NCBI GenBank assembly: GCA_019456225.1
Contig: VRUI01000040.1
Span: 1 to 44,069 of the forward strand
Reading direction: 5' to 3'
From: Planctomycetota bacterium
GTDB lineage: Bacteria; Planctomycetota; Phycisphaerae; Sedimentisphaerales; Anaerohalosphaeraceae
Length of the DNA stretch: 44,069 nucleotides
Shown here: positions 1 to 6,549 of the stretch, one piece after another
Position numbering within the stretch: the first letter of the stretch is position 1
Layout of the letters: each line of letters opens with the position of its first letter
Made by a program: the position numbers and the translations under genes
The notes under the pieces: model-generated
Seen by the model: the letters and a program-made list of their open reading frames with translations, nothing else
Told to the model about the DNA's origin: nothing
Database searches by the model: none

Positions 1-212
1 AAAATATTTCGCATTAAAAGTAAAACAGGCCTTCGCAGCCTGATAAATTAACCAACTTTTTGGGAGTTGAACCAAAAAACAAGAAGTTGAAAGATTGTAG
101 TATGAAGGTAAAAACATTAAGAGCATGAAGAAAAGATTAAGTAAAAGGTGGTGAGTGTTTTGTTGTGTTTTGCTTACAACTTTTGTTGGTTGGTTTTGGA
201 TTTTTGAGGTTT

Positions 213-312
213 TATCCCTGCGCTTGCGCTTCGGGCTTTTGTTTGTTTTGGATTGTTTCGTTTTTTTGAATATCCAATATCCAACACGGAATATCGAATA
301 ACGAAGTAGAAG
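213..312. repeat. Dispersed repeat modules D and C upstream of the first gene
   Basis: Bases 215-243 carry module D (TCCCTGCGCTTGCGCTTCGG core) and 268-312 carry module C (GAATATCCAATATCC...GGAATATCGAAT). Copies of both recur in gaps across the window (about 2330-2520, 4130, 6550, 30350-30735, 35957-36088, 37620). The remaining part of the first 343 bases has no convincing gene. A small hairpin (CAGGC at 26-30, GCCTG at 38-42) is the only structure I see there. Confidence 0.75.
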
Positions 313-343: not shown

Positions 344-1153
344 ATGGGTTATTTGTTTGATTGTAGTGTTTGCGGGGGGCTTGTTATTGAAGAGGGCTGC
401 GCCGATGACTGGCGGGCACTTGCCGGGTATCATTACTGCGATGAGAAGGTGCCGGCGTATAAGGCTTTGTATGTGCTTCGGGACAGGCGGGACGGGCGGG
501 CATGCAGGCCTTTTAACGGGGTGGCCGGAGTAATCGTCTACTCTATGCCGGTTGCAAATATCCGTGGACGCAATATCGCCACGAGCGGGTATTTTACGGG
601 GCTTGGGGATAGGAGTATGCAGCTTGAACTTATCAATAAAAATATCCGGTGCATTCGGCGGGTTGTGATCGAGCCGAGGTACAGAGGGATCGGGCTTGCG
701 TCGAAACTTGTTCGCGAAACTATGCCGCTGCTTGGTGTTCCGTTCATTGAGTCGCTTGCGGTTATGGGGAACTTCAATCCTTTCTTCGAAAAGGCGGGGA
801 TGACGCCCTACCGTAAAGGACGCGATGTTAAGTCGGCTGTGCTGGCGGAAGTTCTGGCGTCCGTCGGGATCAGCGAAGAATTGTTTATCGATCCGCAGAA
901 AGTACATGAAATGATCGAAAAGCTTGGAAACAATGACAGGTTTTTCGTCTGTGACAGGATCGATAAATTTGTTAAGGCGTTCGGTAAACGCGGTAAGATG
1001 GTCCATAGCGTCGAGCGGACACGGTATGTGCTTGGGAAACTTTCGTTTTCGCCGGTTTATTATATTTGGTGTGAAGGTGTGAAAGGTGAGAAAGGTGTGA
1101 AAGGTGAGAAAGGTGTGAAAGGTGTGAAAAGTTTGAAAGGTGTGAAAGTGTGA
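344..1153 (+). CDS. GNAT-like acetyltransferase, phage packaging neighbourhood
   Basis: A 269-residue protein with the acetyl-CoA binding pattern of GCN5-related acetyltransferases at about residues 106-125 (RRVVIEP followed by RGIGLASKL). Substrate unknown. The N-terminus has four cysteines (C7, C10, C19, C32) that could hold a metal. ATG 344 is preceded by GGAGG at good spacing. It is followed at short distance by a ParB-like gene and terminase genes, a gene order common in phages, so it is probably phage cargo. The last 26 residues are KGV/KGE tripeptides encoded by a 9-nt tandem repeat; this tail is probably acquired rather than part of the fold. Confidence 0.75.
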   Translation: MGYLFDCSVCGGLVIEEGCADDWRALAGYHYCDEKVPAYKALYVLRDRRDGRACRPFNGVAGVIVYSMPVANIRGRNIATSGYFTGLGDRSMQLELINKNIRCIRRVVIEPRYRGIGLASKLVRETMPLLGVPFIESLAVMGNFNPFFEKAGMTPYRKGRDVKSAVLAEVLASVGISEELFIDPQKVHEMIEKLGNNDRFFVCDRIDKFVKAFGKRGKMVHSVERTRYVLGKLSFSPVYYIWCEGVKGEKGVKGEKGVKGVKSLKGVKV

Positions 1154-1177
1154 AAAGTTTGAAAGGTTTGAAAGGTT
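1068..1177 (+). repeat. 9-nt tandem repeat (GGTGTGAAA/GGTGAGAAA units)
   Basis: About twelve imperfect copies of a 9-nt unit (GGTGTGAAA, GGTGAGAAA, AGTTTGAAA, GGTTTGAAA). Because the period is a multiple of three, it extends the upstream reading frame as KGV/KGE tripeptides. The same unit family recurs at 12061-12125. Confidence 0.9.
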
Positions 1178-1205
1178 TTTTGTTATTTTTATCAGGAGAG
1201 ATTTT

Positions 1206-1820
1206 ATGAGTTGTAAGGTTATTGAACGAATTGGTGTTGATTTGCTTTTGGGGCATCCGGATAATCCTAATCGGATGAGTAAGAGTAATTTCAAGAAGCT
1301 TGTCGGGCATATCAAAGAGTCGGGCGATTATGAGCCTTTGATCGTTCGGCGACATCGGGAGAAAGAGGGATTCTATGAGATCCTTAACGGGCATCACAGG
1401 ACCGAAGTGCTGCGGGAGCTTGGTTACGACAAAGTCGACTGTGTGGTGTGGGACGTCAGCGATGAACGGGCGTTGATGCTGCTTGCTACGCTTAACCGGC
1501 TTAATGGAAGGAACGATGTCAAAAAGCGGGCAAGCCTGATCAATGAGCTTAGCGAAAAGTTCGACATAAAAGAGCTTACTGCCGCCCTGCCGGAAACAAA
1601 AAAGGCTATCGAAAAACTTAAAACGATCTCTGCATCCGAACCGGTTTTGCGGATTGAGGAATATGAGATTCCTGAAACGCTTGTGTATATCGTAACGGCA
1701 GAGCAAAAAGCGTTTGTCGAACGGATGGTCAATGATGCGATCGATCCGGGCAAAGGAGCTAGCGATGCTAAACGGCGGGCGTGGGCGATGGTTGAGATAC
1801 TTCGCTTCGCGAAGATCTAA
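1206..1820 (+). CDS. ParB/Srx-fold (ParB N-terminal-like) protein
   Basis: A 204-residue protein whose first 100 residues match the ParB N-terminal/sulfiredoxin-like fold: a region with HPDNPNRMS, the core motif LNGHHRTEVLRELGY at about 62-76, and the helix with ERALMLLATLNRLNG. In plasmid ParB proteins this fold binds CTP. Phage members beside terminases are often nucleases or methyltransferase-linked proteins of unknown role. There is no recognisable DNA-binding HTH after it, so it is not a partition ParB. The start is supported by AGGAG seven bases upstream of ATG 1206. It sits between the GNAT-like gene and the small-terminase-like gene on the same strand. Confidence 0.85.
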   Translation: MSCKVIERIGVDLLLGHPDNPNRMSKSNFKKLVGHIKESGDYEPLIVRRHREKEGFYEILNGHHRTEVLRELGYDKVDCVVWDVSDERALMLLATLNRLNGRNDVKKRASLINELSEKFDIKELTAALPETKKAIEKLKTISASEPVLRIEEYEIPETLVYIVTAEQKAFVERMVNDAIDPGKGASDAKRRAWAMVEILRFAKI

Positions 1821-1895
1821 AATGAATAATGACTATTGTATAATGTATAATGAATGAAATCGCCTTCGGCGGAGACTATTTTATAAGGGGAAATT

Positions 1896-2327
1896 ATGGG
1901 ACAGGTTAACAAGAGCGGTATTAAGAAACTTTCTAAGAGGCAGTTGGATGTGATAGATGATCTTTTTAAGGGCAGCTGCAATGAAACAAAGGTGATGAAA
2001 AAACATAAGGTCAGCAGAGGAGTTTATCGCAAATGGCTTGGTGATGAAAATTTCGTCGATGAGCTTGCGTTCAGGGTTGAGTCGGCGAAGAGGCAAAGCG
2101 AGATGATCATGGCGAAGCATGCGCCAAAAGCGGCGGATAAGCTGGTTACGCTTACAGATTCGGAAAAGGAAGAAACGGCGAGGAAGGCGTGCCTGGATGT
2201 AATGACACATCCGATGACGTTAAATTCGTCGAAAGCTGAAAGCAAAAACGTTCCTGATAATATCAGTACGGAGACGGCGGGCAGGCTGCTGAGAGCGCTG
2301 GCTAAAGATGAATGTGGGAAGGTTTGA
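1896..2327 (+). CDS. Phage small-terminase-like HTH protein
   Basis: A 143-residue protein with an N-terminal helix-turn-helix-like segment (about residues 12-48: SKRQLDVIDDLF, then NETKVMKKHKVSRGVYRKWL). This is the layout of DNA-recognition subunits of phage terminases and related homeodomain-like proteins. The remainder is helical and charged. It stands directly before the large terminase gene on the same strand, which is the usual position of terS. ATG 1896 has AAGGGG upstream. The gap to terL is not phage-like: it is filled by the host-type repeats at 2328-2520. Confidence 0.7.
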   Translation: MGQVNKSGIKKLSKRQLDVIDDLFKGSCNETKVMKKHKVSRGVYRKWLGDENFVDELAFRVESAKRQSEMIMAKHAPKAADKLVTLTDSEKEETARKACLDVMTHPMTLNSSKAESKNVPDNISTETAGRLLRALAKDECGKV

Positions 2328-2520
2328 ATATCCAATCCGTCACTACTGCCGGATCTTCGATATCCAACACGGAATCCGTCACTGCTGCCGGATCTTTGAT
2401 ATCGAATTATGAAGTAAAATAACATTTTGCTTGTTTTTTGGGATACTGCTTACAACTTTTGTTAGTTCGTTTTGGATTGCTGGGGTTTTATCCCTGAGCT
2501 TGCGTTTCGGGCTTTTATTT
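2328..2520. repeat. Dispersed repeat modules between the terminase genes
   Basis: Module C (GAATATCCAA) is interrupted twice by an inserted CCGTCACTGCTGCCGGAT-type unit (2337-2355 and 2382-2399), then module D lies at 2487-2520. The CCGTCACTGCTGCCGG unit recurs at about 20557 and 35969. Finding host intergenic repeats between terS and terL suggests long residence in this chromosome. Confidence 0.8.
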
Positions 2521-2553
2521 ATGGCGATTGTTTTGAAAATGGAGATATATGTA

Positions 2554-4023
2554 ATGGTTGATACTTTTTATGAGATTGAACGGGCGGGCGGTGTTTATGG
2601 TGCTTTGCGTAGGGTTGCTCCTGTTAGCCGTGAGGGGCTTGGCGATTATGTTAAGGTTTTTCTTGGGATCGATGTTCCTGATGTTTCGCACTGCGGGGGG
2701 CACTGCAGTCCGATGGATTATTTGTGGCACTGTTACAGCAGCGATTTTTCTTTCGGCAAATCTTCATCGAACGGTGATTGTGTTGTCTGGGCCAACCGGG
2801 GCGGATCCAAGACTGTTCTTGGGGCGGTGGCGACTTTGCTTGACTGCATATTTAAGCCACAGTGCCAGGTTCGGATACTTGGCGGTTCGCTGGAACAATC
2901 GAGCAGGATGTATGAGTATCTTGGCAAGTTTCTGGGCGGCAGCTTCGATGGGATGCTGGATGGGAGCATGCTTAAAGAAAAATGCGGTTTTGTCAACGGT
3001 TCTTCTGCGCAAATACTTACGCAGTCGGCAAAGAGTGTTCGGGGTGTTCATGTTCATAAGCTGCGGTGCGATGAGATCGAGCTGTTTAATAAAGAAGTGT
3101 TCGACGCGGCAAAATTCACTACGCGAAGTAGTGATAACATCAAGGCGTCAATGGAGATCATCAGTACGATGCACCGGCCTTACGGACTAATGCAGAAACT
3201 TGTCGACGAGGCAATCAAAAACGAGACGCCGATATTTAAGTGGTGTATGCTGGAGGTTATCGAACAATGCAGGGGACGCAGCTGCAGCAGGTGCGCCCTT
3301 GATGTTTACTGCCGGGGGAAAGCTAAAAATGCCGGCGGGTATATGAAGATCGACGACTGTATTACGCAGATGCGGCGGTCGAGTAAGGCCGGGTTTGAAT
3401 CTGAGATGCTTTGCAGGCGGCCGAACCTTGAAAACGCGGTGTTCTCCGATTTCGATACGAAGATCCATATCGCACCGGTGGAATACGACAGCAGTTTGCC
3501 GCTTTACCGGGCGATGGACTTTGGGTTTGTCAATCCGTTTGTGTGCCTTTGGATACAGGTTGACGGTGAAGGACGCGTTCGCGTGATCGACGAATATTTC
3601 CGCAGACGGGCGACTATCGAAATACATGCGAAAGAACTGATGGAACGAACGCCGTGCGGTGAAGAAAGTGTGACGGCGAGTTTTTGTGACCCGGCCGGGG
3701 CGTCAGTTAACGACGTATCAGGGACTAGCGCGGTGCGGGAACTTCGGGCGATGGGGATAAGGACAATATACTGCAATAGCAGGATACTTGATGGTGTCGA
3801 GCGGTTGCGTCGGATCGTGCGGGCAGGCGACGGCAGCAGCAGACTATTGATCAGCCCGAAATGTGTTCGGCTTATCGAAGCGATGGAGTGTTATCACTAT
3901 CCGGAAATAGGAGAGAGAGAGCTTCCGGAAAAGGACGGGGTCTATGACCACCCTATCGATGCGCTCAGGTACTTTCTGGTGAATGTTGACAAAAACGTCA
4001 AGCCGGAACGGAAAAGATATTGA
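2554..4023 (+). CDS. terL: Phage terminase large subunit
   Basis: A 489-residue DNA-packaging motor: an ATPase that pumps phage DNA into the capsid plus a nuclease that cuts it. The ATPase domain has a Walker A variant at residues 80-87 (ANRGGSKT) and a Walker B (LRCDEIE). The C-terminal nuclease half shows conserved acidic positions in YRAMDFGF, SFCDPAG and DHPIDALRY. I place the start at ATG 2554, with GGAG nine bases upstream. The open frame extends back to 2431, but that extension reads through a dispersed repeat also found near 200, so it is not credible coding. No portal gene follows. Complete and in frame. Confidence 0.93.
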   Translation: MVDTFYEIERAGGVYGALRRVAPVSREGLGDYVKVFLGIDVPDVSHCGGHCSPMDYLWHCYSSDFSFGKSSSNGDCVVWANRGGSKTVLGAVATLLDCIFKPQCQVRILGGSLEQSSRMYEYLGKFLGGSFDGMLDGSMLKEKCGFVNGSSAQILTQSAKSVRGVHVHKLRCDEIELFNKEVFDAAKFTTRSSDNIKASMEIISTMHRPYGLMQKLVDEAIKNETPIFKWCMLEVIEQCRGRSCSRCALDVYCRGKAKNAGGYMKIDDCITQMRRSSKAGFESEMLCRRPNLENAVFSDFDTKIHIAPVEYDSSLPLYRAMDFGFVNPFVCLWIQVDGEGRVRVIDEYFRRRATIEIHAKELMERTPCGEESVTASFCDPAGASVNDVSGTSAVRELRAMGIRTIYCNSRILDGVERLRRIVRAGDGSSRLLISPKCVRLIEAMECYHYPEIGERELPEKDGVYDHPIDALRYFLVNVDKNVKPERKRY

Positions 4024-4505: not shown

Positions 4506-4587
4506 GCTTATAAATGCTAAAAACTGAAAAAAGCGAATATCCAATAACCAAGTTGTTACAGCCTACAGGATGGCTTGGATGTCAAGT

Positions 4588-6400: not shown

Positions 6401-6549
6401 TGCTTATAGGATCTCGTCGGCTTTGGATTCCCGCCTTCGCGGGAATGACAATATTGTATGACCGGCTCATATTAACTGTAATCATTATTAGTGCCCTGGT
6501 AAAGACATATGCAACTTCTGGTTGCATTATCTGCAATACCGCGTTTTTT

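Follow-up and report, generated by a model that had tools for sequence, protein, structure and literature searches.

Why would a planctomycete keep the DNA-packaging genes of a tailed phage, in phage order, with no phage following them? The question is raised by the left end of a 44,069-nucleotide stretch of DNA from an Anaerohalosphaeraceae bacterium (hereafter the window), whose position 1 is base 1 of contig C89 in a 4.45-Mb assembly of 152 contigs that is 95.8% complete. A preliminary description proposed that a long-resident cassette at 344-4023 had either decayed around a surviving terminase or been kept for a function such as a gene transfer agent (GTA)-like system with dispersed loci. 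The second alternative turns out to be the better supported: as judged from its genes, the cassette is probably the packaging operon of an ancient, vertically inherited, dispersed GTA-like system of Phycisphaerae, to which a system in other Planctomycetota is related. The preference is based on a separate cluster of portal, scaffold, capsid and hub genes that co-occurs with the large terminase subunit, TerL.

The cassette consists of four genes:

344..1153, plus strand: GNAT-like protein of the MK0520/COG2401 kind, packaging-operon component (phrog_886, 4.6e-13)
1206..1820, plus strand: ParB-like N-terminal domain protein (PF02195, 3.7e-9; phrog_723, 1.1e-19)
1896..2327, plus strand: TerS, small terminase subunit (phrog_2538, 1.6e-10)
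2554..4023, plus strand: TerL, large terminase subunit (PF17289, 5.6e-5; phrog_2, 6.7e-22)

These Pfam and PHROGs matches bear out the phage order given in the preliminary description. Equally, nothing phage-like follows TerL in the window: the genes 3' of it are host genes on the opposite strand, beginning with a 96-residue open reading frame (no Pfam match), followed by a rhodanese, MraW/RsmH, a sigma-54 response regulator and a histidine kinase. For the start of TerL, the ATG codons at 2521, 2539 or 2554 are more likely, because the TTG at 2431 falls within a repeat.

Head and tail genes in the relatives

The search for portal, capsid and tail genes that the preliminary description had called for found them in relatives, usually in single copy, apart from TerL and co-occurring with it. 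An SPP1-type portal (PF05133) is present in 28 of the 34 tested genomes, nearly always as a single copy and not beside TerL; among the surveyed loci of the order and class, no portal lies next to TerL. Class-wide, the portal is accompanied by a scaffold protein (PF06810, 8e-7), an SU10-type major capsid protein (PF17236, 1.3e-84), a protein of about 220 residues and tail-like genes, and the same operon holds a protein in the connector position together with small membrane and lipoprotein genes. The capsid matches PF17236 only and the portal PF05133 only. In many genomes there is in addition a protein of about 600 residues whose predicted fold matches the gp27/gp44/VgrG baseplate hubs (best E 2.4e-11), and the protein that follows the capsid (c4) has no PDB match by fold. 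HK97-type portal (PF04860) and capsid (PF05065) were also considered as the missing head genes and rejected, as they are sporadic (6/59 and 8/34, respectively) and the copies of the window's own genome belong to an ordinary prophage on contig C98.

When named genomes were scanned with the capsid alignment, 226 matched. The best 80 of these are all Planctomycetota by title, most of them Phycisphaerae, Sedimentisphaerales, Anaerohalosphaeraceae and Phycisphaeraceae; the gene also occurs in families f32, f53, f83, f85 and f93. IMG/VR holds two close capsid matches only. Both contigs (L198 and L197) bear the GTA-type capsid gene, L198 with most of the head-tail run plus TerS, and they could be host chromosome wrongly catalogued as viral.

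Linkage of the packaging and head halves

Of 294 genomes sampled across the phylum, 37 carry both TerL and the capsid gene, 4 TerL only, 4 the capsid only and 249 neither (Fisher p 7e-38, with shared ancestry uncorrected here and in the distance statistics). Of the 21 genomes in the class sample, 19 carry the two genes together and the other 2 lack both. TerL and capsid distances are also correlated (Mantel r 0.87, p 1e-4).

The two halves meet in some genomes. At loci L159 and L171 the portal operon is preceded by the packaging operon in divergent orientation, separated from it by a sugar kinase (named by eye) and a few small genes, and in G252 both halves fall within about 30 kb. Among single-contig genomes the separation ranges from about 10 kb (G046) through 165 kb (G006) and 690 kb (G042) to 980 kb (G037), and in G152 as much as 69 kb separates the portal from the capsid. 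The simplest reading is an ancestral single neighbourhood that was later broken up, and distances of up to 980 kb suggest that the system's own genome may be too dispersed to be packaged whole.

This linkage bears on one rival explanation, namely that the packaging operon was exapted for a particle-free cellular task such as DNA processing, segregation or defence, with the head cluster as a separate element. The ParB-like and ABC ATPase partners, the distance between packaging operon and head genes in many genomes and a housekeeping gene inserted into the operon (see below) would all suit such a role. However, the close association of TerL with the capsid gene in both occurrence and divergence, the near-neighbour halves at L159, L171 and G252, and the lack of any convincing match to a defence-system model make it quite improbable. 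As a defence system the cassette was rejected on its PADLOC result, which consisted of generic methyltransferase, mad and DndF matches only.

TerL conservation, selection and descent

TerL is not a local oddity that relatives lack. Within the order, 47 of 59 genomes have it at 47-67% identity, usually as a single copy; elsewhere in the class, 19 of 21 sampled genomes encode it, and identities in the other families of the class are mostly 38-48% (phylum sample). Over 43 aligned rows the Walker B DE and the RNase H aspartates (D/D/D-x-x-D) are invariant, and Walker A is GGGKT or near it in 42. The exception is the window, which reads GGSKT (ANRGGSKT, 2806-2829) and alone has a serine for the last glycine before the lysine. 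The terminase that had been called intact is therefore intact in its Walker B and RNase H residues but not in the last glycine of Walker A; from the sequence, this substitution may be neutral, compensated or inactivating.

The proposed measurement of selection on terL gave ratios of nonsynonymous to synonymous substitution (dN/dS) of 0.09-0.22 for close pairs, which indicates strong purifying selection; across TerL and capsid together the range is 0.07-0.22. The TerL tree places 9 families with 8 changes of GTDB family label, the minimum, and the capsid tree places 8 families with 8 changes (minimum 7), host descent being represented here by the family labels of the genomes rather than by a host marker tree. 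Together with the near-universal presence in order and class, the agreement of the TerL tree with these labels corroborates the long residence that had been supposed. Among viral contigs there is no close relative of TerL, and no phage protein comes closer than about 33% identity.

That the cassette is the remnant of a dead phage with TerL intact by chance is a reading to which several observations lend themselves: the own assembly is without capsid genes, the window's Walker A is changed, host repeats have been inserted between the cassette genes, and a few relatives have a TerL interrupted by a stop. Against it, the operon is intact across the class, is under the constraint given above and is found together with a conserved cluster of head genes. 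For the class as a whole decay is contradicted, because an unselected relic would not persist so long in so many lineages, and we regard it as unlikely.

The full packaging operon and its left side

In relatives, two further genes precede the GNAT gene, one for a double helix-turn-helix (HTH) protein with weak similarity to sigma-70 region 4 and to antitermination-Q, and one for a small ABC ATPase. They were invisible in the window because it begins at the edge of C89. In the own genome both are found at the start of another contig, C110:

C110 420-1142, minus strand: ABC ATPase, upstream operon gene
C110 1245-1721, minus strand: HTH protein, upstream operon gene

Repeats of the cassette type sit between these two genes, and beyond the HTH gene lie a methyltransferase, a response regulator and, by eye, a sodium-solute symporter and an acetyl-CoA synthetase. 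Because the HTH and ABC genes start C110 with the same repeats, the own operon is most simply read as HTH-ABC-GNAT-ParB-TerS-TerL, broken by the assembly, and its left neighbour as host DNA; the complete prophage that would have spoken against the preliminary proposal does not adjoin it there.

This gene order recurs across the class, which answers the question of synteny, with order and orientation kept in families f1, f4, f5, f7, f9 and f10, in some without single genes. The GNAT-like gene has an orthologue in 45 of 59 relatives; the ParB-like and TerS genes keep their positions in most relatives that bear the operon, with TerS preceding TerL. In f8 the ParB gene, and partly the TerS gene, was not detected, and in several f1 and f2 genomes TerL is solitary with the GNAT gene elsewhere. 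In f32, which belongs to another class, an ABC-GNAT fusion protein of about 430 residues lies immediately 5' of TerL (L087, L088 and L089), and a related scaffold-capsid cluster is located elsewhere in the genome. In three genomes of this family, an adenylate-cyclase-like gene that is conserved comes next.

In family f4 and in G006, a gene for ribose-5-phosphate isomerase B (RpiB, named by eye) has been inserted into the operon, between GNAT or TerS and TerL (loci oriented with TerL on the plus strand):

L022 8254-8682: RpiB
L024 9120-9557: RpiB
L025 9039-9476: RpiB
L023 5327-5755: RpiB

The window's cassette is further interleaved with repeats:

156..311: repeats before the GNAT gene, an 89-nucleotide element (156-244) and an ATATCC-type element (267-311); dispersed host repeats
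2334..2520: repeats between TerS and TerL; dispersed host repeats
4537..4559: degenerate ATATCC-type repeat about 500 bp past TerL, 70% identity to the reference copy

The 89-nucleotide element has its second copy at 2432-2520 (84%), and elements of the ATATCCAATATCCAACACGGAAT type occur at 267-311, 2334-2420 and 4537-4559. Further copies of the same elements are found at window positions 6549, 8091, 30348, 31411, 35996 and 36058 and on C110, and a shuffled control contained none. The repeats around the cassette are thus dispersed host repeats that are present far from it too. Their reported placement holds before the GNAT gene and between TerS and TerL but not directly after TerL, where the clearest repeat does not adjoin the gene. 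Separately, a 9-bp minisatellite, GTGAAAGGT (window 1065-1180, repeat D1), has expanded into the GNAT gene, where it makes up roughly the last 30 codons and extends the product by about 25 residues of VKGEKG repeats.

Comparison with known systems

The genetic basis of GTAs has been formally established for three groups (PMC9662315). Three of the six published GTA features (PMC9662315) are found here: phage-derived proteins, endogenization and vertical inheritance. TerS, TerL, portal, scaffold, capsid and hub resemble tailed-phage proteins by Pfam, PHROGs or fold, similarity being the sole criterion; the system is fully endogenized in several loci, about 10-980 kb apart on single-contig genomes; and the TerL and capsid trees, with the Mantel correlation, indicate mostly vertical inheritance and co-diversification with the host. 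The contiguous packaging, head and tail genes of an intact prophage are absent, since the genes after TerL lack phage similarity in the surveyed Phycisphaerae loci.

Like RcGTA and CcGTA (Rhodogtaviriformidae), the present system is chromosomal and vertical and combines packaging and head-tail genes with dispersed accessory loci. Their capsid and portal are HK97 types, whereas this one has an SU10-type PF17236 capsid and an SPP1-type PF05133 portal; its capsid is thus not of the HK97 type homologous to RcGTA, as judged by Pfam family and not by RcGTA sequences. Unlike theirs, its packaging operon includes ParB, an ABC ATPase and GNAT and is separate from the head genes, and its hosts belong to a different phylum. 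Brachyspira BhGTA/VSH-1 and Bartonella BaGTA are likewise independently exapted tailed-phage particles (PMC9662315), in different hosts, and are likened here by description and not by gene-level homology; the present system is known from genes alone.

The closest phage parallels are Nickievirus nickie and Escherichia phage Cyrano, in which ParB, an ABC ATPase and an MK0520-like GNAT are grouped as here, those of nickie ahead of TerL, portal and capsid. This packaging module is the ancestral type. Both are phages of 108-112 kb, however, with contiguous head genes in nickie and with ABC and GNAT proteins about 26-32% identical to the present ones. Phages with SU10-type capsids, such as Sporosarcina phage Lietuvens, share PF17236 at no more than 33% identity and carry the capsid in an ordinary single phage genome. 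Phycisphaerae strain ZRK32 releases a 21.9-kb extrachromosomal phage (PMC10945688), to which no link with the present system has been made.

These phages, with the nickie module just upstream of terminase, portal and capsid, and the two IMG/VR contigs with a close capsid relative, could suggest an ordinary temperate phage or satellite, widespread in Planctomycetota and acquired repeatedly. We consider this highly improbable: on complete chromosomes the operons lie up to 980 kb apart, the TerL tree tracks host families with the minimum of changes, the closest phage proteins reach at most 33% identity, and two viral contigs with a close capsid relative stand against 226 genomes. Likewise, the gene maps show by eye no integrase or replication genes, for which no model search was made.

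Points of caution and the window's own strain

Several observations weigh against the interpretation as a GTA-like system, beyond the uncorrected ancestry in the statistics. Its particles, their DNA and its transfer are predicted from the genes. Of 35 good genomes of the order, 16 have a match to the hub (A7), some of these matches being prophage homologues, and no tape-measure or tail-tube protein was recognised; for these reasons, the tail may be absent or divergent in part of the lineages. A single stop interrupts some of the portal regions, and a stop codon breaks TerL in G045, G021 and G239. In the own assembly, the profiles for portal, capsid and GTA-type hub had no match at the completeness given above, and the Walker A serine is peculiar to this strain.

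An assembly gap is plausible for the own head genes because the same cluster is cut into pieces by contig ends in G041 and G007. Alternatively, the own lineage could have lost its head genes, with the Walker A change alongside. Given the missing head genes and the serine, function in this strain is uncertain.

Two of the split TerL genes are located at L078 9332-10774 (G239) and L033 9905-11380 (G045), in loci oriented to place TerL on the plus strand, and may reflect local decay or sequencing error. The own genome (G000) also contains, on C98 (L036), an ordinary prophage whose portal and capsid are of HK97 type and, on C112 (L203), a tail module encoding proteins distantly related to c9, c12 and c13 of the GTA tail; both contigs may belong to one prophage. 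The hub-like matches on C112 were rejected as the own GTA hub, as they belong to this tail module beside an open reading frame of likely tape-measure length.

Proposed mechanism and significance

For the GTA-like system we propose that induction would produce the HTH regulator, which would turn on both operons. TerS would then load TerL onto the host chromosome, with ParB, ABC and GNAT helping to prepare or choose the DNA, and TerL would dock on the portal and fill the SU10-type capsid with host DNA. Finally, cells would lyse and particles would carry the DNA to relatives by means of a hub-bearing or short tail. The HTH protein is probably the regulator, and in f5 and f8-f10 a divergent LexA/CI-like S24 repressor would hold the system off. 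A divergent XRE and S24 repressor is indeed encoded just 5' of the HTH gene in f8, f9, f10 and one f5 genome, with the autopeptidase serine and lysine present in most. In Caulobacter, the LexA-like RogA represses the activator pair of CcGTA, GafY and the antiterminator GafZ (PMC9632790, PMC11150451); the S24 repressor would be a structural parallel to RogA holding off gafYZ.

A bolder account, which we put forward tentatively as a serious possibility, is a GTA of phylum age: a single capture before Phycisphaerae split from at least one other planctomycete class, retained and broken into operons, in which ParB, ABC and GNAT became dedicated factors for the selection of host DNA. The literature searched, with preprints outside its scope, contained no planctomycete GTA.

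If the reading as a GTA-like system is true, it would be an independent GTA lineage across a bacterial class, in more than 200 genomes by capsid gene, and the domestication of phages would be both old and recurrent. Its scattered operons would exemplify the fragmentation of GTAs, and a scan that sees the packaging half alone would label the cassette prophage debris. The operon of TerL, TerS, ParB, ABC and GNAT would make the choice of host DNA by a GTA testable, and Planctomycetota would gain a route of gene exchange.

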